Shown: one piece after another, positions 2,792 to 57,388 of the stretch
Layout: the number at the start of each line of letters is the position of its first letter
Position numbering within the stretch: the stretch's first letter is position 1
Origin: Halomonas sp. 'Soap Lake #6'
Lineage (GTDB): Bacteria; Pseudomonadota; Gammaproteobacteria; Pseudomonadales; Halomonadaceae
Direction: 5' to 3'
Assembly (NCBI RefSeq): GCF_003031405.1
Contig: NZ_CP020469.1
Location: 3,596,001-3,660,000 of the forward strand
Length of the DNA stretch: 64,000 bases
The notes under the pieces: model-generated
Told to the model about the DNA's origin: nothing
Databases searched by the model: none
Seen by the model: only the letters and a program-made list of their open reading frames with translations
Translations under genes and position numbers: made by a program

Positions 2792-2836
2792 GAACTATCT
2801 ATTTACGAACTATCTATTTACGAACTGTCTATTTAT
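2792..2836. repeat. Intergenic 15-bp tandem repeat, three units
   Basis: Units GAACTATCTATTTAC, GAACTATCTATTTAC and GAACTGTCTATTTAT lie head to tail at 2792, 2807 and 2822. The first two are identical; the third differs at two bases. The array lies between the fdhA stop and the hairpin at 2760-2785, outside any gene I accept. It is the only non-coding member of the five 15-bp arrays in the window. Confidence 0.92.
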
Positions 2837-2887
2837 CCCGCACTGCCCCTCCGTCGGGCGGGTGGGCAGGCGCTTTCAGTTGCGGCT

Positions 2888-4081
2888 TTAAGCAGCAACG
2901 CTGCCATGGGGGTCAATGACAAATTTCTTAGCAGCGCCGCCATCGAAGTCGGCGTAGCCCTGGGGTGCCTGGTCCAGGGTGATCATCTGAACATTGACCG
3001 CATCGGCGATCTTAACCTTACCGAACAAAATTGCCTGCATTAGTGGGCGGTGGTACTTCATCACTGGACACTGCCCGGTATGGAAGCTATGAGACTTAGC
3101 CCAGCCGAGACCGAAGCGCATGCTCAAAGCCCCCTGCTTGGCAGCCTCGTCAGCAGCACCTGGGTCTTCAGTAACGTATAGCCCCGGAATACCGATCTGA
3201 CCACCGGCACGAGTCAGCGACATCGCCGAATTGAGTACCGTCGCAGGTGCTTCTTTACCATGGTTGCAGCCGCAGGCGTGGGCTTCGAAGCCTACGCAAT
3301 CGACAAAGGCATCGACTTCACGCTCGCCGAGAATCACCTCTATCTTATCAGCCATGTCGCCATCCTGGGTCAGGTCGATGGTCTCGCAGCCAAAACTACG
3401 GGCCTGGGCCAGACGCTCTTCGACCATATCACCGACGATCACGCAGGCTGCACCCAGCAGTTGAGCAGAAACTGCTGCAGCCAACCCAACAGGCCCAGCA
3501 CCGGCAATATAGACGGTGCTGCCAGGGCCAACACCAGCAGTCACACAGCCGTGGAAGCCAGTGGGGAAAATATCAGAGAGCAGGGTCAGATCTTTGATCT
3601 TCTCCATGGCCTGATCGGTATCGGGGAACTTCAACAAGTTAAAGTCTGCATAGGGAACCATCACGTACTCTGTCTGGCCGCCGACCCAACCGCCCATATC
3701 CACATAGCCATAAGCGGCGCCCGGGCGGGCTGGATTGACGTTGAGACAGATACCTGTGCGGCCTTCTTTACAGTTACGGCAGCGACCACAGGCAATATTG
3801 AACGGTACCGAGACCAGGTCACCTGGCTGAATAAATTCGACGTCGCGGCCGCACTCGACTACCAGGCCGGTGATTTCGTGGCCGAGCACCAGACCGGACG
3901 GTGCAGTGGTCCGGCCCCGCACCATATGCTGATCGCTGCCACAGATATTAGTGGTGACTACCTTGAGAATCACGCCGTGATCGCACTTGCGATTGCCGAT
4001 GGCGAGCTCAGGATAGGCAATAGACTCAACGGCGACTTCGCCTGGCCCTTTATAGACCACTCCGCGGTTGGCTGCATTCAT
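2888..4081 (-). CDS. fdhA: Glutathione-independent formaldehyde dehydrogenase
   Basis: A 397-residue zinc-containing medium-chain dehydrogenase matching, along its whole length, what I know of Pseudomonas putida FdhA (398 residues). It oxidises formaldehyde to formate with tightly bound NAD. Visible are the catalytic zinc region (NICGSDQHMVRG and GHEITG), the structural zinc cysteines (CGRCRNCKEGRTGIC), the Rossmann glycine motif GAGPVGLAA, and the C-terminal FGLGWAKSHSFHTGQ. GGAG lies six bases before the ATG. It is placed between formate dehydrogenase and betaine uptake, close to the dimethylglycine operon, which fits a role in clearing formaldehyde released by N-demethylation. Confidence 0.95.
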   Translation of the reverse strand: MNAANRGVVYKGPGEVAVESIAYPELAIGNRKCDHGVILKVVTTNICGSDQHMVRGRTTAPSGLVLGHEITGLVVECGRDVEFIQPGDLVSVPFNIACGRCRNCKEGRTGICLNVNPARPGAAYGYVDMGGWVGGQTEYVMVPYADFNLLKFPDTDQAMEKIKDLTLLSDIFPTGFHGCVTAGVGPGSTVYIAGAGPVGLAAAVSAQLLGAACVIVGDMVEERLAQARSFGCETIDLTQDGDMADKIEVILGEREVDAFVDCVGFEAHACGCNHGKEAPATVLNSAMSLTRAGGQIGIPGLYVTEDPGAADEAAKQGALSMRFGLGWAKSHSFHTGQCPVMKYHRPLMQAILFGKVKIADAVNVQMITLDQAPQGYADFDGGAAKKFVIDPHGSVAA

Positions 4082-4237: not shown

Positions 4238-4325
4238 CTCCTCCTCCAAAACAGGCCCAACAATTCGCAGCGTCGGTGATCGTGACGCATATCCGACACC
4301 TAACAAGAACCACCAAGGAAACCCG

Positions 4326-5906
4326 ATGAAGAACAATGACGACCCGGTTCTGTCGCCTGGACAGGACAATACCCAGATAATGGGGTTGGATTTTCATAAC
4401 CCCGTCTTTCCACTCTCCGCTCTCGCCATTCTGCTGTTCATTCTTTACGCACTGGTCTATCCAGATGCCGCTAATACTCACCTTGGGCTTGCCAAGAACT
4501 GGTCGATTGAACACTTCGATTGGCTATTCATGATTGCAGGCAATGTCTTTGTGGTGTTCTGCCTCGTGCTGATCTGCTTGCCACTCGGGCGGATTCGCCT
4601 GGGCGGCAAGGATGCAAAACCGGAATATTCGCGCACCTCCTGGTTCGCCATGCTGTTTGCAGCAGGCATGGGGATCGGCCTAATGTTCTGGAGCGTTGCT
4701 GAGCCAGTGGCTTACTACACTGACTGGTACGGCACACCCCTGAATGCACCTGCAGGCACGCCGGAAGGCGCTAGCGCCTCCATGGGCGCGACGATGTTTC
4801 ATTGGGGACTGCACCCCTGGGCGATCTACGGAGTAGTGGCACTCTCGCTGGCCTTCTTTGCCTATAACAAGGGCTTACCACTTACACTGCGCTCCGCCTT
4901 TTACCCGATCCTGGGCGAGCATACCCGCGGCTGGGCCGGCCATATCATCGACATTCTTGCCGTACTGGCCACCATCTTTGGCCTAGCCACCTCGCTTGGT
5001 TTTGGCGCTACCCAAGCGGCTGGCGGCCTTGCCTATTTGTTCGGTATCCCCAATACCATTGGTACGCAGCTGGCGATTATCCTAGTGGTCACGGTGATCG
5101 CGCTGATTTCGGTATGGCGGGGGATCGACGGTGGCGTCAAGCTGTTCTCGAACATCAACATGATCATCGCGGCGGCTCTGCTTCTGTTCGTTGTAATAGC
5201 GGGACCGACCCTGATGATTCTGGCTGGAATCGGCACCACGGCATTGGACTACGCAAGCCACCTTCTGCCGCTGTCGAACTGGATTGGCCGCGATGATGAC
5301 ACTTGGTACCACGGTTGGACCATCTTCTATTGGGCGTGGTGGATCTCCTGGTCACCGTTTGTCGGTATGTTTATCGCGCGCGTATCCCGCGGGCGCACAG
5401 TGCGTGAGTTTCTGATCGCCGTACTGCTGGTACCGACGCTGGTCACGCTGGTGTGGATGAGTGCATTTGGTGGTACGGCTCTTTATCAGGCTGCAAATGG
5501 TGTGGGTGAACTGGCCAACGGAATTGGTGATGTCTCACTTGCCATGTTCCATATGCTGGAGCAGCTGCCCTTGACCAGCATCACGTCGACACTGGCAATT
5601 ATTCTGGTGCTAGTGTTCTTCATTACCTCGTCAGACTCTGGTTCGCTGGTCATCGACAACATCACCGCAGGCGGCAAGACCGATGCACCCAAGGGCCAGC
5701 GGGTGTTCTGGGCCGCGCTGGAAGGCGTGATTGCCGGTGTGCTGCTATACGGCGGAGGCAGTACCGCCCTTAGCGCGCTTCAGGCGGGCGCCGTGGCCAC
5801 AGGACTACCCTTTACGCTAGTGCTCTTGCTGATGTGTTTCAGCCTTTACAAGGGGCTCAACAAGGAGTGGCAGCAGATCAACGCATTGCCAAAAACTGCT
5901 AAGTAA
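4326..5906 (+). CDS. BCCT-family betaine/choline/carnitine transporter
   Basis: A 526-residue inner membrane protein with about 12 membrane segments and BCCT hallmarks: GMGIGLMFWSVAEP near 115-128, a Trp-rich segment WTIFYWAWWISWSPFVGMF near 330-350 followed by ARVSRGRT, and a small-residue SSDSGSL segment near 437. The family imports quaternary ammonium compounds with Na+ or H+. The C-terminal tail is short, so a long osmosensory tail as in BetP or BetT is absent. That favours a catabolic rather than strictly osmoregulated carrier. AAGGAAA precedes the ATG, and a putative GbdR site lies upstream. Glycine betaine or a relative is the likely substrate. Confidence 0.92.
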   Translation: MKNNDDPVLSPGQDNTQIMGLDFHNPVFPLSALAILLFILYALVYPDAANTHLGLAKNWSIEHFDWLFMIAGNVFVVFCLVLICLPLGRIRLGGKDAKPEYSRTSWFAMLFAAGMGIGLMFWSVAEPVAYYTDWYGTPLNAPAGTPEGASASMGATMFHWGLHPWAIYGVVALSLAFFAYNKGLPLTLRSAFYPILGEHTRGWAGHIIDILAVLATIFGLATSLGFGATQAAGGLAYLFGIPNTIGTQLAIILVVTVIALISVWRGIDGGVKLFSNINMIIAAALLLFVVIAGPTLMILAGIGTTALDYASHLLPLSNWIGRDDDTWYHGWTIFYWAWWISWSPFVGMFIARVSRGRTVREFLIAVLLVPTLVTLVWMSAFGGTALYQAANGVGELANGIGDVSLAMFHMLEQLPLTSITSTLAIILVLVFFITSSDSGSLVIDNITAGGKTDAPKGQRVFWAALEGVIAGVLLYGGGSTALSALQAGAVATGLPFTLVLLLMCFSLYKGLNKEWQQINALPKTAK

Positions 5907-5926
5907 TCAACCCTTCAGCTGATTTC

Positions 5927-5950
5927 GGGGCGCCAATTCAATGGCGCCCC
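5927..5950 (+). terminator. Rho-independent terminator after the BCCT gene
   Basis: A perfect nine-base stem, GGGGCGCCA/TGGCGCCCC, with loop ATTCAA, followed by GTTTAGTT, 20 bases after the BCCT stop. Confidence 0.8.
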
Positions 5951-6080
5951 GTTTAGTTAATCTATATGTTGTCGCAAATGCCGTATTGCACGCCGCTGTC
6001 AGCAATGAGCGTGCTGGTGAAGCGCTGCACCATGGCTAAACAATATCAACAACTCTGTTAACAAACCCACGGCTGCTCTA

Positions 6081-7829
6081 ATGATTTATACCATCGCAAT
6101 ACTGTTAAGTCTGGTCGGCTATTTTGTCATCGGGCATCTTGCAGGAAGGCGCGTCAAAGGCCTTGATGACTATCTGGTGGCCGGTCGCAATGCACCCACT
6201 TTTTTTATCCTCGGCACACTGGTGGCTAGCTATTTGAGTACCAGCGCCTTTCTCGGTGAGACGGGCTTTGCCTACCAGGGCTATCCGTTTGTTATGCTTA
6301 TCTTTGCGGCGGTCAGTACCTCAGGGTGCCTGCTTGGCGCGCTGGTATTTGGGCGCTACCTGCGCCGCAGCGGGGCGAGAACTGTACCGGAGTTTTTTGG
6401 CAAGCGCTTCGCTTCACGCCGTGTTCAGATCATAGCCGGACTTACCACGATAATTGGGCTGGGAGCTTATCTACTAGGTGTGATGCAGGGTGCGGGCATT
6501 ATGTTCTCCGAGCTGACTGGCATGCCCTACTGGGTCGGCTTGGTATTAGTATGGATGACCTATACCGGTTTCATTCTCTATTCGGGTTCCCCCGGCGTGA
6601 TGCTGACCGACACGATCATGTTCGTTATCTTCTCGCTAGCAGCACTGGGCGGGTCGCTATATGTCATACAGGACCTGGGCGGCTGGAATGGCGTCGTTGA
6701 AGGGCTTCTAATCCAGACAGACAAGCCGGGAATTGCGCTTTGGCATGGCGTACTGGAAGGCCCAGAGGCTAGCTTCTCCTCACCGGGAGAGGCACTTACC
6801 TGGGGCCTAACACTGGGCCTTGTCTGGGCAGCGGTGCTGGCAGCCAGTCCCTGGCAGTCCAGCCGTTACCTGATGGTGCGTAACGAGCACGTGGTCATGC
6901 GCTCTGCCATGCTCACGGCGGTAGCACTCGCCATCTTCTACGCACTAATGATGATGACCGGCGCAGCGATCAACCTGTATAACCCGCAGCTAGATCCGGA
7001 ACGCTCCATGATCTGGGTGGCACTCAATATCCTGCCCACTTGGCTTGGGGTAGTCATTCTTACCGGCGTGTTTGCTGCCGGATTGTCGTCTTGCTCAACC
7101 TTCCTGTCGATCATCGGCTTTAGCCTTTCCAATGATATTCTGCCCGCCTCTCTAAATGAGAAGGCGGCAATGCGCAAAAGCCGTATCGCGGTGCTCTCAG
7201 CCGGCCTGATTGCACTGCTGCTCGCGCTGTTTCAGCCGCCAGCGGTCATGTCAGTGGTGTGGTTTGCCGCGACACTGTTTGCCTCCTCCTGGGGGCCAGT
7301 GGCTCTGATGAGTATCTGGAGCAAGCGGATCACCGCAGCAGGTGCAGGCTGGGGCCTAGCAGTAGGATTCATTGGCAACGTCATTCTGTCGATGATGATC
7401 CAGATCGAGTGGCTCAGCCTGCCGGTGTATCTGCACCCAGTGTTACTAAGCACGCTGATGGCGCTTGTCGCTATTGCTCTGGCCTCCAGAGCGACTCGCG
7501 TAAGCCAAGCCGAGAAAGACTATCGAGCGTTTCTACATGAGTTTGATGCCCAGGCGGTCAGCAGTTGGGTCTCCGGCACGCGCTTAATCGCACTCTGTAC
7601 CATGCTTTCCGGCGTGGCCATCGGGGTATTCCTGTGGCAACAGTACGCGGTGACACTGGATGGGTTTGCCGAGCGCTTTGCGCTTTCCTCTGGTGCAGTT
7701 CAGGGCGGCTACGCCCTGGCAATTGGCTGCGGCAGCATGCTGCTCATTGCCGGGGCAGTAGGCTTTTGGCTGGTTCGCCCTCAACAGCAGAAGGCGTCTG
7801 CCAAACGAATGGCCACGGGCAACCGTTAA
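6081..7829 (+). CDS. Sodium:solute symporter family (SSS) transporter
   Basis: A 582-residue integral membrane protein of the SSS family, the PutP/PanF/DhlC-like group. It has about 13-14 hydrophobic segments, the early motif GLDDYLVAGRN (29-39), TSAFLGETGF, and the G-F-A-A-G-L-S-S-C-S-T segment near 336-346 that contributes to the Na+ site in this fold. The substrate cannot be read from sequence. The location between the BCCT carrier and dimethylglycine genes suggests a methylamine-related or carboxylate solute. The start has no convincing ribosome binding site; the first ATG is kept because the family's first membrane segment follows at once. Confidence 0.85.
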   Translation: MIYTIAILLSLVGYFVIGHLAGRRVKGLDDYLVAGRNAPTFFILGTLVASYLSTSAFLGETGFAYQGYPFVMLIFAAVSTSGCLLGALVFGRYLRRSGARTVPEFFGKRFASRRVQIIAGLTTIIGLGAYLLGVMQGAGIMFSELTGMPYWVGLVLVWMTYTGFILYSGSPGVMLTDTIMFVIFSLAALGGSLYVIQDLGGWNGVVEGLLIQTDKPGIALWHGVLEGPEASFSSPGEALTWGLTLGLVWAAVLAASPWQSSRYLMVRNEHVVMRSAMLTAVALAIFYALMMMTGAAINLYNPQLDPERSMIWVALNILPTWLGVVILTGVFAAGLSSCSTFLSIIGFSLSNDILPASLNEKAAMRKSRIAVLSAGLIALLLALFQPPAVMSVVWFAATLFASSWGPVALMSIWSKRITAAGAGWGLAVGFIGNVILSMMIQIEWLSLPVYLHPVLLSTLMALVAIALASRATRVSQAEKDYRAFLHEFDAQAVSSWVSGTRLIALCTMLSGVAIGVFLWQQYAVTLDGFAERFALSSGAVQGGYALAIGCGSMLLIAGAVGFWLVRPQQQKASAKRMATGNR

Positions 7830-7871
7830 CCAAACGAACATGCAGTGAGCCGATGCTCAGCTGCTACGCTT

Positions 7872-7905
7872 AACCGCTCGTCTACCCGGCGAGCGGTTAT
7901 CTTTT
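7872..7905 (+). terminator. Terminator after the SSS transporter gene
   Basis: Stem AACCGCTCG/CGAGCGGTT (nine pairs, loop TCTACCCGG), followed by ATCTTTT. It lies 43 bases after the transporter stop and just before the ribosome binding site of the next gene, so the DMT transporter may have its own promoter or depend on read-through. Confidence 0.8.
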
Positions 7906-7927
7906 ATGCCAACCGGGAGTCGATACA

Positions 7928-8815
7928 ATGCAGTTAAGTGCTTACCAGCGTGGTCTGCTTATGGTGGTGCTTGGCGTGGTGTTTCTGAGCTTCGATGGCC
8001 TACTGATCCGTCTTGCCGATACCGACGGCTGGACCATCGTGTTCTGGCGAGGCTTATTGATGTTCTGCGTGTTGGGGCTGCTGTGCAGTGCTGGCAAGCG
8101 ACTGGAGACGCTGAGAAGCAACCCTTTCTCCTCACTGGCCTCAGCTCTGCTGCTGGGCTTGATATCCAGCCTGTTTGTGCTGGCGGTCATGAACGCCAAC
8201 GTGGCCAACGTGGTGGTGATCCTGAGCACCGCACCGCTGTTTGCCGCGCTGTTTTCGCGGATATTCCTGGGCGAAAAAGTCGCGCTGCGAACGCTGGTGG
8301 CCATCGCCGTCTCCATGCTGGGCATGAGCCTGGTTTTCATGGGCGAGGGGGCCATGGGGATGCTGGTAGGCAACCTCTATGCCTTGGCAGCCGCAGCAGC
8401 CATCGGCGGTAACCTGACCCTGCTACGCCGTTATCCAGTAATTGATCCCATGACGGTGGTTGCCGGTGGTGGGCTGCTCTCGGCGGCAGTTGCTCTGCCC
8501 CTAGCCTCGCCGCTGGACCTGGATGCCCAGCGCTATGGCGTACTGGCACTGATGGGGCTGGTGCAGATGCCCTTGGCCACCGTGCTGATCAACAGCGCCA
8601 CCCGTTATTTGCCGTCGACGGAAGTGGCGCTGTTTTATTTGGTCGAAACAGCGCTGGGCACTCTCTGGGTGTGGTGGTTGCTGGGCGAGGCACCCACCGC
8701 CTCGACGCTAGTCGGCGGTGGGGTGGTTATTATGGTGCTGGTATTACATGCCTGGATAGGCTTGCGCCTTGAGAGACAACGCCTGCAGCTTTACCCGGGC
8801 TTTATCGGCAAATAG
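7928..8815 (+). CDS. DMT-superfamily (EamA) transporter
   Basis: A 295-residue protein with ten predicted membrane helices in two repeated EamA halves; helix-terminal sequences such as FWRGLLMF, NANVANVVVILSTAPLFAALFSR and ATRYLPSTEVALFYLVE are typical. The family exports or imports metabolites, often amino acids or their derivatives; no specific substrate is indicated. GGGAG precedes the ATG by eight bases. It is flanked by terminators on both sides and so is probably monocistronic. Confidence 0.88.
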   Translation: MQLSAYQRGLLMVVLGVVFLSFDGLLIRLADTDGWTIVFWRGLLMFCVLGLLCSAGKRLETLRSNPFSSLASALLLGLISSLFVLAVMNANVANVVVILSTAPLFAALFSRIFLGEKVALRTLVAIAVSMLGMSLVFMGEGAMGMLVGNLYALAAAAAIGGNLTLLRRYPVIDPMTVVAGGGLLSAAVALPLASPLDLDAQRYGVLALMGLVQMPLATVLINSATRYLPSTEVALFYLVETALGTLWVWWLLGEAPTASTLVGGGVVIMVLVLHAWIGLRLERQRLQLYPGFIGK

Positions 8816-8846
8816 CCAATCAAATTGGGGGCCATTGCCCATCAGA

Positions 8847-8868
8847 AAGCCCGCCGGGAGGCGGGCTT
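8847..8868. terminator. Bidirectional terminator between the DMT gene and etfB
   Basis: Perfect nine-base stem AAGCCCGCC/GGCGGGCTT with loop GGGA. It lies between convergent genes and serves the plus-strand transporter and the minus-strand dgc operon that ends with etfB. Confidence 0.8.
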
Positions 8869-8902
8869 GAACGGTGGTTAGAGGCGTGATGAAAGAAGAC
8901 CT

Positions 8903-9760
8903 TCAGCGCAGTACTTCCTCTTCCTTGAGCAGTTTGTAGATCGCCTCGGCGCCCTGTTCGGGGGTCACGTCGGTGAGTACTTGCCCGCCCTTGCCCTCGG
9001 CTTTGGAAGCGGCGGCTTTAAAGCGATCCCTGGCCGAAGCAGCTTTGACGATTTTCAGACGTTTAGGCCGTTTACGCGCAGGAGCTTGGTGCCACTGCGC
9101 CAACTCGCTATCAGCTTCAGGGGTAGTCGGCGTGACCGCAAGGGTAGCTCGACGAGCCGGGCCAAAAGCACTTTGTCGCGCCGCTGGCCCTGCTTCGTCC
9201 AGGCTGATGATGGCGGGCAGGCGCACCTTGAGACGGCGACGCTGCCCCCTGGGTAATGCCTGAAGCAGCGTTACCACGCCATTCTCTATCTTTTCCACCG
9301 CAGCCAAACCATTAACCAACGGCCAGCCAAGGTGTTCAGCCAACGCATAGGGTAAAAGCCCTGACCCCTCGCCACGTTCCGCGCGGGAGCCGGTGATCAC
9401 TAGTTGCGGCGCAGCCGCAGCCAAGTGCTCCGCCAGAGCCGGAATGGCATCACTGCCCTCAGGTTGCTCCAGCAGCGTCATGGACTCAAGCCCCATACCA
9501 GCGCCTGTGGTCATACCAGAGCCTGTGGCCATACCTAAGTAGCCGCGCAGGGCTGTCTCGCTGTCAGCATTCTGAGGCCCAGCGTGAAGCAGGCTAATCC
9601 GGGTGCCCGGCAGCTCGGCCTCCATGGCTAGCGCAAGCTCCAGGCCCCGAGCATCCTGTTCGGCGCGCCGCGCACGACCGGTTGTGGGGTGGCGCCCGAT
9701 GGAGACCAGCACCGCCACATCGACTCCCTGCTGCTGCTTTTGCTGTTGATCAGGCCGCAT
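8903..9760 (-). CDS. etfB: Electron transfer flavoprotein beta subunit of the dimethylglycine operon
   Basis: A 285-residue ETF-beta-like protein, the AMP-binding partner of the alpha subunit encoded upstream. Family features include an N-terminal Rossmann-like fold, ITGSRAERGEGSGLLPYALAEHLGWPL near 128-154 (the conserved ETF region) and LPRGQRRRLKVRLPAIISL. It is more divergent than housekeeping ETF-beta, as in the P. aeruginosa dgc cluster. The Gly/Met/Thr-rich loop near residues 78-90 comes from an 18-bp repeat (9494-9529). GGAGGG precedes the ATG, and the gene overlaps etfA by 11 bases, so translation is coupled. It would carry electrons from DgcA/DgcB to the quinone pool. Confidence 0.85.
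   Translation of the reverse strand: MRPDQQQKQQQGVDVAVLVSIGRHPTTGRARRAEQDARGLELALAMEAELPGTRISLLHAGPQNADSETALRGYLGMATGSGMTTGAGMGLESMTLLEQPEGSDAIPALAEHLAAAAPQLVITGSRAERGEGSGLLPYALAEHLGWPLVNGLAAVEKIENGVVTLLQALPRGQRRRLKVRLPAIISLDEAGPAARQSAFGPARRATLAVTPTTPEADSELAQWHQAPARKRPKRLKIVKAASARDRFKAAASKAEGKGGQVLTDVTPEQGAEAIYKLLKEEEVLR
9494..9529. repeat. Two-copy 18-bp tandem repeat inside etfB
   Basis: CATACCAGCGCCTGTGGT and CATACCAGAGCCTGTGGC are adjacent and differ at two bases. On the minus strand they encode the near-repeats MATGSG and MTTGAG within a loop of ETF-beta, so the reading frame is kept. Confidence 0.8.
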
Positions 9761-11024
9761 CGCGCTGCCCTCCTCGCTGCTGTTCCACCATAGCCACTAA
9801 CGCGGCAAGGATTTTCGTACTGTCGCCTATCACCGCCAGGTCAGCGCGCTTGATCATGTCGCATCCCGGATCGAGATTGATCGCCACTACCTTGTCGCAG
9901 CGCTGAATGCCCTGCAGGTGCTGGATAGCGCCTGAAATACCAACCGCCATATACACTCGGGCGGTCACCCAGGTGCCGGTAGCGCCCACCTGACGATCGC
10001 GAGCCATAAAGCCATCGTCCACAGCAACACGCGATGCCCCTTCGGTGGCACCGAGCACTTTCGCGGCATGGTGGAAGGCGTCCCACTCTTTGACGCCATT
10101 ACCGCCGGAGAGGATAAACTCTGCCTCGGCCAGCGCTACTCCAGCGGGATCCACCGCCACCTGTCCCAGATCTTCAATACGCGACAGGGTGGTGGGAAGC
10201 GACGCCGCCAGGGTCAGGTGCTCGGCCGCGTGACGCGTCTCGTCCACCGGCTCGGCGCACTCGGCCAGCGCCAGCGCAATCCGCGGCAGCGGGCGTTGAA
10301 TATCCAGGCTACCGGCACCACCACGAGCCGTACAGCGCCAACCCAGCGGCGCCTCATTTTCAGCCTCAATCTGCCAAACGCCCGTGGCAGCGCGCTCGCC
10401 CAAGCGCACGGCCAGACGCCGCCCCAAATCAGCCCCGCCAAGGGGTGAATCAGGCAGCAACCAGAAGCGCGGCGTCATCTCCCGCTCTACGGCACTTAAG
10501 GCAGCTAAACGCACCTCAGGGGCAAAGCCCGTGTAGATGTCATCGTCAAAGTGCACTACCCGATCAATCCCGGCTTCGCCCAGTGCGTCTTCTTTATGCT
10601 CACCAAACAGGATCGCCACCACGGCGCCAGGGCGGTCTACATTGGCATCCGCCACACGCCTGGCCAACCCTAGCAGATCCTTATCATGGCCGGAGAGACG
10701 CCCACCAGTCAGGTCGGGCACCACGGCCACCAGGAAGGCAGGTTGATCAATCGTCACCATACGTCGGCTATCGCGAGCCGCCGTCGTTGCCGCGGTGGAC
10801 TGACCTCCTTGCTGGAGACCACTACGGTCAATCCGCTTGATGCCATTGGGGCCGATAAAGCCGATGGCACGAGGATTCTTGCGAACCACGCCGTTGGGTC
10901 CCAGCCACTCGCTGACCGCCCCGCCGCTTACACCAAGGGCAGCAAGCACACTGGCGTGCTCGGGATGCAGTCGGTTTCGGGCGATCCATTCACGACGCGG
11001 GTCGCGGCGAATAATCTCACTCAT
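9750..11024 (-). CDS. etfA: Electron transfer flavoprotein alpha subunit of the dimethylglycine operon
   Basis: A 424-residue ETF-alpha, longer than the usual ~310 because of an N-terminal extension. The C-terminal FAD-binding domain is clear: QVGATGTWVTARVYMAVGIS near 325-345, SGAIQHLQG, AINLDPGCDMIKRADLAVIGD near 375-395. It binds FAD and accepts electrons from the dimethylglycine demethylation complex. The start overlaps the dgcB stop by four bases, with GAGGAGG upstream. Divergent ETF pairs next to dgcA/dgcB are also known from Pseudomonas. Confidence 0.88.
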   Translation of the reverse strand: MSEIIRRDPRREWIARNRLHPEHASVLAALGVSGGAVSEWLGPNGVVRKNPRAIGFIGPNGIKRIDRSGLQQGGQSTAATTAARDSRRMVTIDQPAFLVAVVPDLTGGRLSGHDKDLLGLARRVADANVDRPGAVVAILFGEHKEDALGEAGIDRVVHFDDDIYTGFAPEVRLAALSAVEREMTPRFWLLPDSPLGGADLGRRLAVRLGERAATGVWQIEAENEAPLGWRCTARGGAGSLDIQRPLPRIALALAECAEPVDETRHAAEHLTLAASLPTTLSRIEDLGQVAVDPAGVALAEAEFILSGGNGVKEWDAFHHAAKVLGATEGASRVAVDDGFMARDRQVGATGTWVTARVYMAVGISGAIQHLQGIQRCDKVVAINLDPGCDMIKRADLAVIGDSTKILAALVAMVEQQRGGQRDAA

Positions 11025-18158: not shown

Positions 18159-18555
18159 GGCCTTACCCTCCGTCACCTTTAAATCATCATTTTTTTCTTA
18201 TTAGTATATAGGTGTCGCTGGCGTCTTTTAGTTTCCTTTCACTGAGGTGAATACTCACTTGCAAAAGGGTGCACTACTCTGATGGTCGTATCTTGGCACG
18301 AATAGGGCGGATAGCGACAAAACTATCTCATAAAACCAATCGCTGGTCGCAAATGAAACACTGAACGTCGCTCCCAACATTACTGAAAGGTTATGGACGT
18401 AACGGTTTTACGGGTGGCGCTGAGCGAGGACATTGCGGAAGATCCGTTACAAATGTACGGATCGCCTCAAAGGGCAGGCTGGATGAATAGGCGAAATACC
18501 GGACTACCAAAATGCAGTACGCGCCGGTAGCCCATTGACGGGGCTACCGGGCTCC
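18159..18555. other. Intergenic region between gbdR and the TRAP operon
   Basis: No convincing gene. It should carry the gbdR promoter on the minus strand. GTCGC half-site-like pieces occur near 18313 (as GCGAC), 18346 and 18368; the 10-mer GTCGCAAATG at 18346 also occurs at 5971 upstream of the SSS gene, which may be chance. A 45-codon reading frame at 18393-18530 has GAAAGG before its ATG but no recognisable product. The TRAP terminator hairpin is at 18524-18550. Confidence 0.5.
18524..18550 (-). terminator. Terminator of the TRAP operon
   Basis: Ten-base perfect stem CCGGTAGCCC/GGGCTACCGG with a seven-base loop, five bases past the DctM stop on the minus strand. No long T-run follows. Confidence 0.7.
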
Positions 18556-19860: not shown

Positions 19861-19884
19861 GATCTCCACCTTGTCAGTTTAGGG

Positions 19885-32886: not shown

Positions 32887-35028
32887 CTAAAGGATTATCG
32901 ACACCTCCTGAGTCTGTCTATTTGCACACTGATGGCCTTTACCACTTACCTCAGCCAGATTGTTCAGCTCTCTTGCAAGCTGGTCTCCACTCATCTGGCG
33001 GGCAATAAAGTGGGGACCGCCTCTCCAGCGGGGGAAACCGTAGCCATTGACCAATGCAATATCAATATCCGCAGGCCGCTGGCAAACGCCCTCTTCCAGT
33101 AACAACAAGGCTTCGTTGATCAAAGCAAGCACAGCGCGCTGCTGGATCTCCTGCTCGCTAAACGCTTTAGCCGTGATGGCGTGCTCTTCTCGGTAGCGTT
33201 CAATAATCTGGGCGACTTCTGGGTCGGAGGTTGGCCGCATTGCCTCATCATAGCGGTAATAGCCGCTGCCGGTTTTGCGTCCTAAACGACCCGCTTCGCA
33301 AATTAGATCCGGTATACCCACGTAGCGTCTCAAGTGTCGGGTATCGGCGGTTTGCTGGCGCATTTTCCAGGCAATATCCAGCCCAGACATATCCGCCACT
33401 TTAAAGGGTCCCATGGCAAATCCGTAAGCTTCCAGAGCGGCATCAATTTGCTCAGGGCTAGCCCCCTCTTCCAGCATAAATTCACACTGCCGCCGATAGG
33501 CCGCATAGAGCCGATTGCCCACAAAGCCCCATGAATTGGCGACCACTATCGCCTTTTTCTTTAACCGCCGTGTAACGGCCGCTGCGCTGCTCAAGGTCTG
33601 CTCGCTGGTGGTTTTACAGCGCACGATCTCCATTAGCGGCATGCGGTCGGCAGGACTGAAGAAATGCAGCCCCAATACGCGCTCCGGGTGGGGAATGCCC
33701 TCGGCAATCTGATCAATATCAAGGTAGGAGGTATTGCTAGCCAGTAGCGTGCTTTTGCTAACCGACTTAGCCAAATCAGCAAATAGCGAGCGCTTGATGG
33801 CCAAATCTTCCACAATGGCCTCAATGACCAAGTCAGTGCCGGCAACATCGGGTAAATGCTGAGTCGAATTCAGGCGGGATAGCGCGTCATCACGCTGCCC
33901 CTGGGTTAACCGCTGGCGTTTAACACCTTCATCCAACGCCTGAGTAATTCGCGCCACACCTGCTTTAAGTGCCTGATCATTTAACTCCACAAGATCGACG
34001 CTATAGCCTGCATTAAGTGCACAAAGGGCAATACCGCTGCCCATGGTACCTGCACCTACCACTGAGATGCGTGTGATTGGCGTGGCCTTAACGGGCTGGG
34101 TAGGCACAAAGGTTTTTTCACGCTCGGCAAAAAACAGATAACGCAGCGCTTGGGCAGACTCACTGCCTCGCAAGGCCAGAAACCGGGCCCGCTCTTCAGC
34201 TATCGCGGCGCTAAAGCTGAGCGTGGCCGCCTTCATCACTACCTCGGCGGCGACCGGCGCGGCGGGTAAGCCACGAGCACGTACCAGCAGTTTATTCACC
34301 TGGGCTTGCAGTGCTTGCTCATCCGCAGGGAGCACGTCGCGTTCTGCTAGTGGCTGTTTGCCACCCCGGTAGCGGTTGGCATAAGCCAATATCGCCTTGA
34401 GCAGCTCAGTTTCCTGCACCTCTGCTTTCTGCGCCTCTGCTTCCTGCGTCTCGCCCCTGCTGGTTTCACCCTGCGTGGCGTGGAGCAGTTCATCAACCAA
34501 CCCCACCTTTTGGGCTTCAACCGCTGTAATAGGCTTACCGGAGACAATCATATCCAGCGCCAGGGGTAAGCCCACTACCCGTGGCAGACGCTGGGTACCA
34601 CCAGCACCTGGGATCACTCCCACCGTGACCTCGGGCAGGCCCAGCAGCGCGGTGGGGGTTGCGATGCGGCTGTCGCAGGCTAACGCTAACTCTAACCCCC
34701 CTCCCAGGGTATGGCCGCTGATTACCGCAATCACCGGTAGCGGAAAAGCGGTGAGCGCGGTGGTGACCTGGGGCAGCGTCGGCTCCGTTGGCTCGTGCTC
34801 CAACTCGCGCAGGTCGGCCCCCGCCATCAGGTTCGGGCCTTTTCCCATCAGCACCACGGCACGGCTTTGCTGAGTATCAATCTTGGCCAAAGCCTCCAAG
34901 ATACCTCGGCGCACCGCGTCATTGCTGCTATTCACCGGCGGGTTATCCAGAGTAATGATGGCAATTTGCCCTTCCTGGCTAAGGTGAACGCGGTCCGTGG
35001 TGGGAGTAATGATGGGTGAATCAGCCAT
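32887..35028 (-). CDS. Bifunctional enoyl-CoA hydratase/3-hydroxyacyl-CoA dehydrogenase
   Basis: A 713-residue FadJ/EHHADH-like fusion. Residues 10-200 are an enoyl-CoA hydratase/isomerase domain (ISGHTLGGGLELALACDSRI near 105, PEVTVGVIPGAGGTQRLPR near 130). From about 300 it is a 3-hydroxyacyl-CoA dehydrogenase (NAD motif VVGAGTMGSGIALCA, AIVEDLAIKRSLFADL, GLHFFSPADRMPLMEIV). The linker near 190-206 carries a 15-bp DNA repeat encoding ETQEA-EAQKA-EVQET. ATG at 35028 overlaps the upstream stop by eight bases, with GGAGGTGG before it. Likely to hydrate and oxidise the CoA ester made by the neighbouring synthetase. Confidence 0.92.
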   Translation of the reverse strand: MADSPIITPTTDRVHLSQEGQIAIITLDNPPVNSSNDAVRRGILEALAKIDTQQSRAVVLMGKGPNLMAGADLRELEHEPTEPTLPQVTTALTAFPLPVIAVISGHTLGGGLELALACDSRIATPTALLGLPEVTVGVIPGAGGTQRLPRVVGLPLALDMIVSGKPITAVEAQKVGLVDELLHATQGETSRGETQEAEAQKAEVQETELLKAILAYANRYRGGKQPLAERDVLPADEQALQAQVNKLLVRARGLPAAPVAAEVVMKAATLSFSAAIAEERARFLALRGSESAQALRYLFFAEREKTFVPTQPVKATPITRISVVGAGTMGSGIALCALNAGYSVDLVELNDQALKAGVARITQALDEGVKRQRLTQGQRDDALSRLNSTQHLPDVAGTDLVIEAIVEDLAIKRSLFADLAKSVSKSTLLASNTSYLDIDQIAEGIPHPERVLGLHFFSPADRMPLMEIVRCKTTSEQTLSSAAAVTRRLKKKAIVVANSWGFVGNRLYAAYRRQCEFMLEEGASPEQIDAALEAYGFAMGPFKVADMSGLDIAWKMRQQTADTRHLRRYVGIPDLICEAGRLGRKTGSGYYRYDEAMRPTSDPEVAQIIERYREEHAITAKAFSEQEIQQRAVLALINEALLLLEEGVCQRPADIDIALVNGYGFPRWRGGPHFIARQMSGDQLARELNNLAEVSGKGHQCANRQTQEVSIIL
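34408..34452. repeat. 15-bp tandem repeat in the hydratase/dehydrogenase linker, three units
   Basis: AGTTTCCTGCACCTC, TGCTTTCTGCGCCTC and TGCTTCCTGCGTCTC are head-to-tail 15-bp units, with a degenerate fourth after 34452. On the minus strand they give the pentads ETQEA, EAQKA and EVQET in the linker between the two enzyme domains, where the insertion is tolerated. Confidence 0.85.
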
Positions 35029-40387: not shown

Positions 40388-41761
40388 TTAACCAATAAGC
40401 GCTGAGTTGAGAAGCGCAACCGAACCAGGCAGTTCGTTGCTCGACATCACGACTTCTTGAAGAGACTGACTCATAGAGGGTAAAAGCGAGCCGCTTGCTA
40501 ACTCCTGATACTTTTCAAACAGCTCAGCATCGGTCATGGGATCCTCAGGATCCCCTTTCCGGGTCTCCTGTAGATGCCGATAGGTATTGCCATCAACGGT
40601 GGTGACAATGATATTGGCCATCCGCTGGCGGGGGTAACGAGCTGCAATATCGGCACGTTCTACGACACTCACCTTAGGCATTAATGCACGGATACGGGTA
40701 TCTTCCAGCACCGGCGGCTCAAACGCTTGTAGCCTAACCTTGCCCAACACCAAGTACGCAGCAATACAGTATTGAATACTGAAGCGTGCCTCTTGGGCAG
40801 AGGAAGGAGAAGGACGATTACACATCGAGTAGGTCGCGCCGTAGCCTTCAATGTGAATGGACTCAATGCTCTCCGCTGTAATGGACGCGGAAGCTTGCAG
40901 CGCTTTTAAGCCATCCAGCGCGGGAAAAATATGCCCACAACAGCCGTGGTTTTTCACTGTCATGCGGGTAATCGGCGTCCAGTCATCAAGACCCTCAAGT
41001 GCTGCGCCCCAATTGCCGGTTGAGTCGCTGGTGGCAGCCGCAAACCCATTGCTGGCATGCAGGCTGTCTAGCGATGCGGTGACCCCTCTTGCCGCTGCCA
41101 TTCCGGCCATTAATCCAGCATCGGCGGCATGTCCAGCATGCAGCGGCTTGGCCATGCCCTCACCCTGCAAGTTCTGCTGATGACCACCAGCAAAACTACT
41201 GGCCAACCCAATAGCGTGGCCAATTTGCTCTGAAGTGGCGCCGAGCAGCATCGCGGTTGCAACCGCCGCTCCTATGGTGCCCACTGTGGCGGAGGTGTGC
41301 CAGAAGCGGTAGTGGCTTGGCTGGATGGCGAGGGCAATGCGGCAGCCCACTTCATACCCGCCAATAATGGCGCGATGAAGCTGTTCACGGGTGGCTTGGC
41401 TATCTTGCGCAACGGCCAATGCCGCCGCAATCGTTGAGCTACCTGGATGGTAGCCACCATCCTTGAAAATGTCGTCAAACTCAACGGTGTGGCTCGCCGT
41501 GGCATTTAACAAAGCGGCATAACGCGGCGACCCGAGGTGCCCATCCACATAACAAACCGCGCCGCCCTCCCCACGAGTTGAGGAAAAGGCTTCTGATAGC
41601 AGCGTGGCAGGCGCTTGGTTACACCCCGGCAACGTCGTAGCGAACCAATCCAGCAGTGCCCGACGAGCAGCCCAATCAGTCTCAGCGTCCAACGGGCGGG
41701 TGTTCCAGTGATAAGCAGACTGGGCCAGACGTTCAAGCGGGTTAGGCATAGTGGTACTCAA
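40388..41761 (-). CDS. MmgE/PrpD-family dehydratase/decarboxylase-like protein
   Basis: A 457-residue protein of the MmgE/PrpD superfamily, which includes 2-methylcitrate dehydratase and cis-aconitate decarboxylase. Visible are the N-terminal helical domain (ALLDWFATTLPGCNQAPA), HTVEFDDIFKDGGYHPGSS near 91-109, and KPLHAGHAADAGLMAGMAAARG near 203-224. The best start is TTG at 41761, since AGGAGG lies at proper distance before it and it overlaps the caiB stop by four bases; an ATG twelve bases later is less well placed. It probably acts on a di- or tricarboxylic acid imported by TctABC. Confidence 0.9.
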   Translation of the reverse strand: MSTTMPNPLERLAQSAYHWNTRPLDAETDWAARRALLDWFATTLPGCNQAPATLLSEAFSSTRGEGGAVCYVDGHLGSPRYAALLNATASHTVEFDDIFKDGGYHPGSSTIAAALAVAQDSQATREQLHRAIIGGYEVGCRIALAIQPSHYRFWHTSATVGTIGAAVATAMLLGATSEQIGHAIGLASSFAGGHQQNLQGEGMAKPLHAGHAADAGLMAGMAAARGVTASLDSLHASNGFAAATSDSTGNWGAALEGLDDWTPITRMTVKNHGCCGHIFPALDGLKALQASASITAESIESIHIEGYGATYSMCNRPSPSSAQEARFSIQYCIAAYLVLGKVRLQAFEPPVLEDTRIRALMPKVSVVERADIAARYPRQRMANIIVTTVDGNTYRHLQETRKGDPEDPMTDAELFEKYQELASGSLLPSMSQSLQEVVMSSNELPGSVALLNSALIG

Positions 41762-43050
41762 GGCTGACCTCCTAAGTTGCTATCGACACCAACGCCACTC
41801 TCTAAGTCAGAACTACCTAAATCAGAACTAACTAAGTCAGAACTACTTTCTAAAGGCCCACTGATTGCGCCAGCAGCGATGAGTGCCGCTAAATCCTGCT
41901 GTGAATAGCCCAGACTCATCAGTACCTCAGCGGTTTGAGCGCCCACTTTTTGCGGTGGTGACGTAATGCCACGGGTACCCCCGGACATGCAAAACGCTGA
42001 CACTGGAACAGTCAGCGCTTGTTCTAGGTCTGGGCTTAGCGGCTGAGCGTGCAAGACGCCTCTTGAATGAACATGTGGATCATCCAGTGTCTCTTCTAGC
42101 CGCCTAATGCGTGAGGCAGGAATCCGCCGCTTCTGTAAAAACGCCTCCCAGTAGTCAGCAGTCATGGTGCTAATGATTTCAGCAATTACCTTGGCTTCCT
42201 CAGCGTGGCTATCAAGGCGCTGATTATTGTTCTGTTTAATCATGTCCTCCCTGCCTAAGGCCGTCCACAAGCGTTTTTGCTGGGTTAAGTTAGAGGCGGC
42301 AATCATTAACGGCTGGTCAGATGCTTGGTAGCAGCCAATGGTGGCGAAGGGAAAGGTATTGCCTTTGGGTTCTGGTTTTTTGCCATTCCACAGCAACGCC
42401 GTTAAATAGGGGCTGGAGAGCATCAATGCTGTATCTGACATGGAAACATCCACAAACTGCCCTTTGCCACCATTGCGTTCACGCTGAAACAGGGCGGTTG
42501 AGATGGCAAACGCGGCCGTGGTACCGGTGGCATAATCCACCACCGGCGCGCCACTTTTAAGCGGACCGCTATGCCGGTCGCCAGTCATGGCCATCATGCC
42601 TGAGTAGGCTTGGATGACATTATCGTAGGCGGTGAGCTCCCTGCGCGGGCCAGTGCTGCCAAAGGCTGAAATGGAGCAGTAAATCAGCTTAGGGTTGAGC
42701 AGCTTCAGGTCTTCGTAGCCCAGCCCCAGCTTTTCTAATGCCCCAGGCCGATAGTTTTCGACAAACACATCTGCGGTGGCGAGTAACTTCTTTAACGCCT
42801 CACGCCCCTGAGGATGTTTAAAATCGATCGCCACGGCTTTTTTATTGCTGGCTTGGGACATAAAGGCGGTGCCTAGCCCCTGATCATTCAGCACTCGATC
42901 AGACCCTTGCATGCGCGCTTGGTCTGGGTCGCTGGGCGACTCAACCTTGATCACATCGGCCCCCAATACCGCCATCTGATAGGTAGCAAAAGGGCCCGCC
43001 AATACGTGGGTAGCATCAACAACACGGATATTTTCAAACGGGGAAGACAT
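41758..43050 (-). CDS. CaiB/BaiF family III CoA-transferase
   Basis: A 430-residue CoA-transferase with family motifs DATHVLAGPFATYQMAVLGADVIKVE (12-37) and GAPVVDYATG, whose Asp172 matches the catalytic Asp of formyl-CoA transferase. It moves CoA between carboxylic acids without ATP. The C-terminus ends in a Ser/Asp-rich tail with a 15-bp repeat (SSDLV-SSDLG-SSDLE) that the family lacks. ATG at 43050 has GAGGC upstream; an in-frame start 24 bases earlier is less likely. It is the promoter-proximal gene of the organic-acid locus. Confidence 0.92.
   Translation of the reverse strand: MSSPFENIRVVDATHVLAGPFATYQMAVLGADVIKVESPSDPDQARMQGSDRVLNDQGLGTAFMSQASNKKAVAIDFKHPQGREALKKLLATADVFVENYRPGALEKLGLGYEDLKLLNPKLIYCSISAFGSTGPRRELTAYDNVIQAYSGMMAMTGDRHSGPLKSGAPVVDYATGTTAAFAISTALFQRERNGGKGQFVDVSMSDTALMLSSPYLTALLWNGKKPEPKGNTFPFATIGCYQASDQPLMIAASNLTQQKRLWTALGREDMIKQNNNQRLDSHAEEAKVIAEIISTMTADYWEAFLQKRRIPASRIRRLEETLDDPHVHSRGVLHAQPLSPDLEQALTVPVSAFCMSGGTRGITSPPQKVGAQTAEVLMSLGYSQQDLAALIAAGAISGPLESSSDLVSSDLGSSDLESGVGVDSNLGGQP
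41803..41847. repeat. 15-bp tandem repeat at the 3' end of the CoA-transferase gene, three units
   Basis: TAAGTCAGAACTACC, TAAATCAGAACTAAC and TAAGTCAGAACTACT are adjacent 15-bp units. On the minus strand they encode SSDLV, SSDLG and SSDLE in the C-terminal tail, beyond the conserved domain. Confidence 0.9.
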
Positions 43051-43087
43051 AACGGCCTCAGTGCACTTATTCATTTTTGTTGATCTT

Positions 43088-43140
43088 CATTGTTGTTGAC
43101 CGGCAGCGATATCTTGCCGATCTATAGTGAATCAACAATG
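43088..43140. promoter_or_regulatory. Inverted repeat upstream of the CoA-transferase gene
   Basis: CATTGTTG at 43088-43095 and CAACAATG at 43133-43140 are perfect inverted arms 37 bases apart, 38 to 90 bases upstream of the CoA-transferase start. The layout suits two operator half-sites flanking a promoter. The regulator is unknown. Confidence 0.4.
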
Positions 43141-43335
43141 CATAAATAAACGGAATATGTGCACTGACGAAACGTCAGGTGATGGTTAACAAATAGTTCG
43201 CAGAGTGCTTTAGTTTGCGGCAGATGGCCTTCTCGCCACTCATCCCGGTAAACCTAAACGACAGCACTAATCCGCTCTTGGCACTTATAAAGCGGGTAAA
43301 CAGACATCCGCTGCCAAGCATGAGTGGTAGGATAT

Positions 43336-48829: not shown

Positions 48830-49120
48830 ATGATGTGCGCATATAAGCAGAAAACCTTCGCATCACGCTCCCGATGCCGAGTACTTATGTGGCTGGCCTG
48901 CATCTTGGTGACCGCCTTATTGCTGGCAAGTGGTGTTCGGTTTCTTATGAGCGAGCCACCCAGGCCGGTGCTGAATAAAGCAATTCAGAGTCACCCTGTG
49001 CCAAACAATTCTGTGCCAAACAACTTAGCGCCAAACAACTCAGCACCGAACAACTCAGCACCGAACAATTCTGTGCAAAGTGATCCTGTGCAGAGCAACC
49101 CTTCCTTGAAGACTCTCTAG
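48830..49120 (+). CDS. Small membrane-anchored protein with PNN-type pentapeptide repeats
   Basis: A 96-residue protein beginning 11 bases after mipA. Residues 18-40 form one hydrophobic helix (LMWLACILVTALLLASGVRF); the rest would be periplasmic and consists mainly of pentads such as VPNNS, APNNS and VQSDP, encoded by an eight-unit 15-bp DNA array (48986-49105). No family recognised. AGGCAGGCAAC before the ATG is a fair ribosome binding site. It may be a flexible periplasmic linker or simply expanded sequence. Confidence 0.65.
   Translation: MMCAYKQKTFASRSRCRVLMWLACILVTALLLASGVRFLMSEPPRPVLNKAIQSHPVPNNSVPNNLAPNNSAPNNSAPNNSVQSDPVQSNPSLKTL
48986..49105. repeat. 15-bp tandem repeat in the small membrane protein gene, eight units
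   Basis: Units start every 15 bases from 48986: CAGAGTCACCCTGTG, CCAAACAATTCTGTG, CCAAACAACTTAGCG, CCAAACAACTCAGCA, CCGAACAACTCAGCA, CCGAACAATTCTGTG, CAAAGTGATCCTGTG and CAGAGCAACCCTTCC. The inner units are most alike and the outer ones more diverged. Confidence 0.9.
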
Positions 49121-55804: not shown

Positions 55805-55819
55805 GTATCAGCCAAGCCA

Positions 55820-57388
55820 CTACTCCCTTGAAGGCCCCAAAAAGCGGGTTTCGTTGATACTCTTTATCGAGGGGTCGTCTAATGCGATGAAATGCAGTTC
55901 AACGGGATGGCTGGGTTGGGTTAGATCATCAGCGTCCACCGTGAGTGCAAGGCGTAGGCTGCGTGTCTCGTTAGCGTCCACCTCGATGGTATCCATACCC
56001 TGTAAGCGAAGCCCAGGCAGCCCCTCTGCCGATAGCGCATAGCGATGGGATTGGGCATCTTGATTACGCAGCGTCACGTTGTAGTAATTAATGATGCGCC
56101 CATCTTGCGTGGTTTCAAACAGCGTTTGGCGATCCCGCACAATGTCCACATCGATGGGCATGCGCGTATTCAAGAAGCCAACGAGTAGTACCACCATCGT
56201 TAGCAGTGCTACGGCATACGCAATCAGCTGAGGGCGCCAAAAACGGGTGGTTTTGCCTTCCAATGAACGTTCAGTGGTGTAGCGAACCAGACCTAGCGGT
56301 TTATTAATACGTTCCATCACGCTGTCACAGGCATCAATGCATGCCGCACATCCAATACACTCGTACTGCAGCCCATCGCGAATATCGATACCAGTGGGAC
56401 ATACCTGAACACACAGTTCACAGTCGATGCAGTCACCAACTTGGGTTGCCTCAGAGGCTTTTTGCAGGTGATTACGGCGCGGCTCACCGCGTGCGGCATC
56501 ATAGGAGACAATCAGTGTATCGGCGTCAAACATCGCCGACTGAAAACGTGAGTAGGGGCACATATGCAAGCAGACTTGATGGCGTAGCCAACCAGCATTC
56601 AAGTAGGTAAAAACCGTGAAAAAACCAATCCAAAATAACGCCCAGGGGTGCACATTAAGACTGACCACATCTACCACTAACGCTCTGATCGGAGAGAAGT
56701 AACCGACGAATGCCATGCCGGTTGCCAAGGCAATTATCAGCCAGGCCGTATGTTTGGCGGTTTTACGCCATAACGTGTCCAAGGTGCGCGGCGCGTTATC
56801 ACGGCGTATGCGGCGGTGTCGTGGTCCTTCTAAGCGGTGCTCGAACCAGATGTACAAAAATGTCCAAACGCTTTGCGGGCAAGTATAGCCACACCATACC
56901 CGCCCAGCTGCCACCGTGATCAAAAACAGACCAAAAGCGCATATCACCAAGATCCAGGTAAGCAAGATAAAGTCTTGCGTGTAAAACGTCGCCGCAAACA
57001 GATGGAATTCCTGCGCAGAGAGATCAAACCAAACCAGAGGCCGCCCACCCCAATTGATCCACGGCAAACCAAAATAGAGTGCCATCAACAGCCAGTTGGA
57101 GTGGCGTCGAATGCGCTGAAAAAAGCCACCTATCTCGCGCACATAAATATGCCCCAGCGCAGGAGGCCTGGATTTAGAAGGCCTGGATTTAGAAGGCCTG
57201 GATTTAGAAGGCCTGGATTTAGGAGGCCTGGATTTAGTAGGACTAGAGTTAGGAGATATAGGGCTAGGAGATACGGGTTTAGAGGAAATAGGTTTAGAGG
57301 AAATAGATTGAGAGGATTTAGATGAAGGCGTGTGGTGTTTAACCGCCGCCTCCGCGGCCAAGTTTTGCAGTGGGATGCGTTGCGTCAT
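55820..57388 (-). CDS. ccoG: Cytochrome c oxidase accessory protein CcoG (FixG/RdxA)
   Basis: A 522-residue membrane ferredoxin-like protein needed for cbb3 oxidase assembly, probably in copper reduction. Five membrane segments are visible (about 95-115, 135-160, 205-225, 240-260, 388-408). Cluster cysteines are in GDCIDCELCVQVCPTG and CIGCAACIDACDS near 305-350, and GRVWCGYTCPQ precedes them. It is about 50 residues longer than usual because of a Ser/Pro/Lys pentad stretch at 22-75 encoded by a 15-bp array. No ccoNOP genes are in the window; a CioAB oxidase is instead nearby. Confidence 0.93.
   Translation of the reverse strand: MTQRIPLQNLAAEAAVKHHTPSSKSSQSISSKPISSKPVSPSPISPNSSPTKSRPPKSRPSKSRPSKSRPSKSRPPALGHIYVREIGGFFQRIRRHSNWLLMALYFGLPWINWGGRPLVWFDLSAQEFHLFAATFYTQDFILLTWILVICAFGLFLITVAAGRVWCGYTCPQSVWTFLYIWFEHRLEGPRHRRIRRDNAPRTLDTLWRKTAKHTAWLIIALATGMAFVGYFSPIRALVVDVVSLNVHPWALFWIGFFTVFTYLNAGWLRHQVCLHMCPYSRFQSAMFDADTLIVSYDAARGEPRRNHLQKASEATQVGDCIDCELCVQVCPTGIDIRDGLQYECIGCAACIDACDSVMERINKPLGLVRYTTERSLEGKTTRFWRPQLIAYAVALLTMVVLLVGFLNTRMPIDVDIVRDRQTLFETTQDGRIINYYNVTLRNQDAQSHRYALSAEGLPGLRLQGMDTIEVDANETRSLRLALTVDADDLTQPSHPVELHFIALDDPSIKSINETRFLGPSRE
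57165..57314. repeat. 15-bp tandem repeat in the 5' part of ccoG, ten units
   Basis: Units begin every 15 bases at 57165. The first three are identical (GGCCTGGATTTAGAA), units four and five differ at one base each, and units six to ten diverge step by step (for example GGACTAGAGTTAGGA, GAAATAGGTTTAGAG). On the minus strand they encode pentads of the S-K-S-R-P and S-S-K-P-I kind. Recent copies lie at the side nearest the conserved domain. Confidence 0.95.

Follow-up and report, generated by a model that had tools for sequence, protein, structure and literature searches.

Minisatellite-like arrays with units of about 15 bp in Halomonas sp. 'Soap Lake #6' as probable products of a genome-wide mutational process

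Short tandem duplications that need no flanking homology are known from eukaryotes, where patch- or nick-mediated events, studied with CST–Pol alpha-primase fill-in (PMC8355091) and in mouse cells (PMC5730883), were attributed to staggered ends or opposed nicks that are filled in and then rejoined; the small tandem duplications of rice (Vaughn and Bennetzen 2014) are cited within that eukaryotic work. The tandem arrays considered here, five of which have 15-bp units and lie in a 64-kb stretch of the Halomonas sp. 'Soap Lake #6' genome (the window, positions 3,596,001–3,660,000 of a single-contig genome of 4.80 Mb), are likewise short duplications and may mostly arise with little or no flanking homology. 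However, in the available parts of both reports, joining proceeds by Ku-dependent non-homologous end joining, and in that work the duplications mostly cover almost the full length of the induced overhang, whereas Ku was not detected in the Soap Lake genome or its sister species, and the units here stay near 15 bp whatever their composition.

Among bacteria, Burkholderia pseudomallei resembles the present case in its many arrays, most of them between genes, and in favouring one unit length, which according to the available part of the report is 6–9 bp there (PMC1853098) and 13–16 bp here, mostly in 2–5 copies and with no shared unit. Intergenic tandem repeats also accumulate in a relative, Portiera aleyrodidarum of Bemisia tabaci, for which the authors use Halomonas as the free-living relative; in the accessible sections of these papers (PMC5322561, PMC7821994), the repeats, with microsatellites named, are tied to the loss of dnaQ, mutL and other genes. 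In contrast, dnaQ and mutL are intact in the Soap Lake genome, and short-period repeats are almost absent. The intragenic repeats of Legionella pneumophila are all divisible by three in length and some vary in copy number between strains, but the available portion of that report (PMC2639597) notes no unit length favoured in genes and noncoding DNA alike, unlike what is found here. No account of the step length in Halomonas or Vreelandella was found among the top-ranked open-access literature matches, a scope outside which most subscription journals fall. Preferred unit lengths are already known in other bacteria; a homology-poor, Ku-free birth of typical length would be the new part. The birth of tandem repeats, unlike their expansion, is poorly understood in bacteria, and a free-living group with frequent, low-homology births of typical length would make the birth question testable. 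Acting through the reading frame, a mutational step length would also write pentapeptide repeats into flexible protein regions.

The arrays are probably products of a mutational process that acts genome-wide and, at varying density, in the genus (most likely Vreelandella, Halomonadaceae). The first evidence is the spectrum of unit lengths, obtained from 1.28 of the 4.80 Mb by sampling 40 stretches of 20 kb at even spacing across the first 3.14 Mb, followed by neighbouring stretches and the window, with genes called by a custom script rather than a standard gene finder. In the first 800 kb, Tandem Repeats Finder (TRF, score 50) returned 6, 7, 12, 16, 8, 3 and 7 arrays with units of 12, 13, 14, 15, 16, 17 and 18 bp, respectively. 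Since TRF thresholds disfavour short units, exact self-matches 11 bp or longer were also counted at each offset from 2 bp upwards, a measure that is about flat over offset in random sequence. The noncoding runs of the Soap Lake genome number 0, 0, 0, 0, 1, 2, 0, 0 and 0 at periods 2–10 and 3, 5, 13, 20, 23, 10, 3 and 11 at periods 11–18, with echoes at 26–30. Counted over intervals of at least 30 bp (132,857 bp), 78 runs at 12–18 bp, a class picked after the data were seen, stand against 3 at 2–10 bp, and a first-order Markov null gives a mean of 0.6 and a maximum of 2 runs at 12–18 bp in 20 replicates. The arrays are minisatellite-like in that their tandem units are no shorter than about 10 bp; microsatellites show no excess, as the single noncoding run at periods 2–6 lies below the Markov null. 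After deduplication across the Soap Lake genome and the sister, the noncoding peak lies at 13–16 bp (6, 20, 26, 26, 15, 7 and 10 runs at 12 to 18 bp), with a mean of 14.77 bp, a median of 15 and a standard deviation of 1.62 (n = 110) that is narrowed by the 12–18 bp limits. Unit length is independent of the GC content of the unit (rho −0.07, p = 0.44, n = 124 units of 11–20 bp).

In genes, the spectrum is confined by the reading frame. The 1051 coding stretches hold 2, 4, 10, 21 and 10 runs at periods 6, 9, 12, 15 and 18, where a codon-shuffle null gives 0.8, 1.4, 1.0, 1.4 and 0.4; an excess of 15 bp over 6, 9, 12 and 18 bp, on which the original prediction depended, is thus seen in the sampled genes, and longer multiples are also over-represented (9 runs each at 30 and 36). 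The mix of 12, 15 and 18 bp shows no detectable difference between deduplicated coding and noncoding runs (p = 0.39), and therefore the reading frame selects 15 from a broader step: the exact 15 in genes is the noncoding peak of 13–16 bp seen through the reading frame. The earlier proposal that mutation favours a particular step length is thus largely supported so far, but its step of exactly 15 bp is not. Some of the noncoding period-15 arrays may lie in small genes that escaped calling, as for the array at 49000, but a gene-finder artefact does not account for the peak, since no reading frame accommodates periods of 13, 14, 16 and 17. A single dispersed element was also rejected, as had been argued from the unrelated units of the window: across 124 arrays of period 11–20 in the Soap Lake genome, compared in any rotation or strand, none of the 1133 equal-period pairs at different places is at least 85% alike, and one is at least 80% alike.

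The second line of evidence is turnover against the sister species (genome G030, 94% identical, 450,026 ungapped aligned columns). Clean noncoding indels (n = 156) number 106 at 1–4 bp, 6 at 5–8, 3 at 9–11, 20 at 12–18, 2 at 19–22, 3 at 23–30 and 13 at 31–60 bp, and the corresponding coding counts (n = 64) are 31, 7, 2, 14, 0, 4 and 6. This second mode at 12–18 bp holds under four gap settings; it is weakest, at 16 noncoding and 12 coding indels, where opening a gap costs least. It comprises 34 of the 220 clean indels, vs. 1 of 74 in 15 Pseudomonas and Marinobacter pairs (Fisher p = 0.0006), or 20 of 156 vs. 0 of 32 for noncoding indels only (p = 0.028), with control pairs that are mostly more diverged (80.7–93.9% identity) and for that reason give fewer cleanly flanked indels. 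Seven pairs of other Halomonadaceae gave 64 clean indels, three of them of 13–15 bp. Measured within 120 bp of the array, length is equal in the other species for 6 of 46 noncoding arrays of the Soap Lake genome and 6 of 25 of the sister, and for 8 of 21 and 6 of 15 coding arrays. With 40 of the 46 differing (one genome per species), copy numbers are not fixed, as had been expected between strains and is seen here between species.

The third is occurrence in other genomes, expressed as runs or arrays at 12–18 bp per noncoding kb. The Soap Lake genome has 75 in 143.0 kb and the sister 35 in 86.6 kb (1, 1, 9, 12, 10, 5, 5 and 1 sister runs at periods 11–18), and there are 14 unmerged runs in 42.4 kb of 20 congeners and 8 in 58.8 kb of 24 named Halomonadaceae loci. 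The controls gave 1 in 55.1 kb for Pseudomonas, 0 in 23.3 kb for Marinobacter and 0 in 32.5 kb for E. coli K-12; the Pseudomonas, Marinobacter and named Halomonadaceae loci all come from around ccoG and have GC contents of 61%, 56% and 61%, respectively, vs. 53% here. Seven of the 20 congeners, sampled over 20 kb each, carry a noncoding run at 13–17 bp, one more (G034) has a single run at 12 bp, and the commonest congener period is 14 (7 of 14 runs). The assignment to Vreelandella follows from the closest named CcoG proteins, those of V. maris (74% identical) and V. hamiltonii (71%), a comparison from which near-identical records may be left out.

How such arrays are born was approached through junction homology, since an exact tandem duplication of period p with m homologous bases at the junction yields an offset run of p + m. 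Exact duplications of periods 10–24 in the two genomes comprise 55 noncoding cases (m = 0, 1 and 2 in 14, 7 and 1, m ≥ 3 in 33) and 33 coding cases (12, 7 and 1, with m ≥ 3 in 13). With identical units merged, a further decayed copy lies beside 28 of the 33 noncoding and all 13 coding cases with m ≥ 3, suggesting that these are older arrays. A young set was therefore formed from both genomes, consisting of exact two-copy duplications of period 12–18 that lack a decayed copy next to them (n = 20 after merging of identical units); here m is 0 in 9, 1 in 6, 2 in 1 and at least 3 in 4, where chance predicts about 11, 6, 2 and 1. In addition, in eight unpolarised indels between the two species, the extra sequence exactly repeats a unit present once in the other genome; the units measure 21, 9, 16, 14, 16, 10, 16 and 15 bp (taken twice), and the junction homologies are 0, 0, 0, 1, 3, 0, 0 and 3 bp. 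In this small sample, births have mostly 0–1 bp of homology, as do the young duplications, suggesting that birth mostly needs little or no homology and that a minority may arise by slippage.

Several observations weigh against a ruler-like, homology-poor process. A long m by itself makes a decayed neighbour easier to score; m ≥ 3 is common among all exact duplications and, with four cases where about one is expected, slightly exceeds chance in the young set, so that slippage at short repeats may explain some births. The eight births span 9 to 21 bp, which is wider than a strict ruler would give. Among the 34 clean indels of 12–18 bp, 18 are at least 80% like a neighbouring copy and several lack such likeness, and some of these unpolarised indels may be losses. 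Twelve of the 20 congeners have no noncoding run at 11–20 bp in their 20 kb, the gene or enzyme behind the process was not found among the candidates searched, and bacterial Ku-free end joining is usually described with microhomology.

Part of this would be expected from ordinary replication slippage, in which short direct repeats seed the duplications, mismatch repair clears loops of 1–4 nt, larger loops stay, and the length is not special. Growth by whole units is slippage-like, the intact MutS and MutL would suppress very short units, and the four young duplications with m ≥ 3 fit as well. However, periods of 5–10 bp escape or partly escape mismatch repair, yet they give 3 noncoding runs in the Soap Lake genome, compared with 78 at 12–18; the young two-copy events have mostly 0–1 bp of junction homology, and the peak is missing from the samples of E. 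coli, Pseudomonas and Marinobacter. Slippage as the whole explanation is thus unlikely.

A mutational process with a typical duplication length would instead proceed as follows. At birth, roughly 10–20 bp, centred on 14–15, would be duplicated head to tail with little or no repeat at the ends; from two copies on, whole units would be gained or lost by slipped pairing, giving differences of one to five units, and the copies would decay by substitutions. The filter that follows is seen in the data: noncoding DNA keeps every unit length, at the highest density where genes converge, and genes keep mainly multiples of three, in flexible linkers and tails, with 15 leading and 12 and 18 beside it. 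Birth may be an event of DNA repair: staggered breaks, or nicks on opposite strands, at a spacing of about 15 nt would be filled in and rejoined independently of Ku, and the duplication length may be set by a protein that acts as a ruler. The idea that ends of a typical stagger are filled in is inferred by analogy with the mammalian work, and the replication- or repair-based cause named in the original prediction likewise is still an inference. The UvrABC excision patch (12–13 nt) and RNA primers have about the length that such a ruler would need and are candidates for it. As a tentative proposal, the genus may carry an activity in repair or replication that measures out about 15 bp and, needing neither homology nor Ku, makes head-to-tail duplications that continually found new minisatellites and new linker sequence in proteins.

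Ku (PF02735) was not detected in the Soap Lake genome or the sister, which speaks against Ku-dependent end joining, and it is present in 1 of 82 genus genomes; the sole Ku-bearing genome has two neighbouring matches (G020:C1:1924608-1925976). Duplex melting between opposed nicks was rejected as the ruler, since it predicts longer AT-rich units, a dependence on composition that the units do not show. Lost replication or repair functions could destabilise the genome, as proposed for the Portiera of Bemisia, whose many intergenic tandem repeats are tied to the loss of dnaQ and other genes in the accessible sections of those papers (PMC5322561, PMC7821994). However, in both the Soap Lake genome and the sister, dnaQ, mutS, mutL, ExoI, the ExoVII large subunit and the PolA 5′ nuclease domain score above their cut-offs (curated ones for the first three), and RecJ (390 bits) lies just below its cut-off of 397, all without internal stops. 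Loss of proofreading or mismatch repair was therefore rejected, as was loss of single-strand exonucleases or of the PolA 5′ nuclease, and an explanation by lost functions is improbable, though a gene beyond those listed, or a changed activity, may still play a part.

Still less probable is a mobile or specialised enzyme, i.e., a reverse transcriptase, a Cas1-type integrase with a target duplication of 14–15 bp, or a transposase whose insertion was lost. Casposase-type Cas1 makes target duplications of about 14–15 bp, and the Soap Lake genome encodes homologues of both reverse transcriptase and Cas1. However, reverse transcriptase was not detected in G030 and G048, nor Cas1 in G043 and G048, all three being genomes with 13–16 bp arrays, suggesting that neither enzyme is needed. 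Selection, by which pentapeptide repeats would serve the flexible parts of proteins and units between genes would act as spaced binding sites, agrees with the location of the window's coding arrays in linkers and tails but is very improbable, given that no unit is common to two places, that the noncoding peak includes 13, 14, 16 and 17 bp, favoured by no frame, that the slot of the noncoding window array holds a different array in the sister, and that lengths disagree between the two species at most noncoding loci.

By intergenic type, the Soap Lake genome has 17 arrays in 18.7 kb between convergent genes, 44 in 77.1 kb between tandem genes and 16 in 35.4 kb between divergent genes, and the sister 10 in 12.5, 19 in 47.6 and 6 in 20.5 kb. 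Between stop codon and hairpin, the Soap Lake genome has 13 arrays in 6.1 kb vs. 11 in 13.1 kb beyond the hairpin; a link to terminators was rejected because the sister counts (2 in 4.0 kb vs. 4 in 12.1 kb) do not clearly show the same difference. As to a strand bias, the 66 units between same-strand genes have A and T fractions of 0.329 and 0.293, compared with 0.260 and 0.279 in their flanks.

The window itself is rich in arrays, with five unit-15 TRF arrays and one scored as 30 in 64 kb; the 800 kb sampled elsewhere hold 16 unit-15 arrays. TRF recovers period 15 at all five places noted earlier, four of them inside open reading frames, as predicted. The array ends noted earlier differ from those of TRF by 1–3 bases at most places and by 14 and 29 bases at the fourth, where the outer copies are too decayed for TRF. 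The features are collected in the table.

Table. Tandem arrays and duplications in the window
Position	Strand	Feature	Evidence
2791..2835		Noncoding array, unit CGAACTATCTATTTA, 3.0 copies, score 83	TRF; sister flanks align
34411..34452	-	In-frame pentapeptide array, 2.8 copies, score 63	TRF
41802..41846	-	In-frame pentapeptide array (SSDL-), 3.0 copies, score 76	TRF
49000..49076	+	In-frame PNNSx pentapeptide array	TRF
57164..57328	-	SKSRP array and decayed continuation, CcoG N-terminal linker	TRF
945..973	-	12-bp tandem duplication	TRF; one 12-bp copy absent in sister (genome 3596962)
9493..9535	-	18-bp in-frame tandem duplication	TRF; one 18-bp copy absent in sister (genome 3605503)

The noncoding array lies in the 3′ flank of a minus-strand alcohol dehydrogenase-like gene (2888–4081) and adjoins a hairpin at 2760–2785 that was read by eye; the array in its slot in the sister is also 15-bp-like, between alignable flanks. 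The array at 34411 follows the ECH_1 match of an enoyl-CoA hydratase/3-hydroxyacyl-CoA dehydrogenase protein (PF00378, PF02737), and that at 41802 lies in the C-terminal tail of a CoA-transferase III (PF02515). Both lie within about 15 kb (28177–43326) without a counterpart in sister contig C84, where the flanks are joined; 18378–21972 likewise lacks a counterpart in that contig.

The array at 49000 occupies the tail, mostly pentapeptides, of a small membrane open reading frame (about 48830–49120) with no Pfam match. TRF finds 4.6 copies at period 15 over 49000–49068 (score 82), and period 30 scores 98 over the full array. The head of the frame is kept in the sister, whose array is 20 residues shorter with a different end, so that the Soap Lake array is 60 bp (4 units) longer.

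The array at 57164, in a CcoG/FixG-like protein (PF13746, PF11614), is a single long decaying array, with 5.9 copies at 57164–57252 (score 143) and 2.7 copies in its continuation at 57276–57316 (score 68), and is 75 bp (60 + 15, five units) longer than that of the sister. CcoG N-termini were obtained from 7 of 12 genus loci tried and from none of 8 named loci; every one of the seven, which include the Soap Lake and sister proteins, has a different linker between conserved ends. The ccoG frame overlaps the start of an opposite-strand frame of 588 residues by 57 bp (57332–57388, predicted starts).

Outside the window, a 100-bp block at genome position 1435789 that is missing from the sister contains two arrays; one has 7-bp units (CCTAGTA), half of 14. 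At the contig start (L002), giant arrays of the 6-bp units TGATGC (about 920 copies, 4289–9809) and GCCGAT (102 copies, 2019–2632) were excluded from the counts and perhaps encode a repetitive surface protein.

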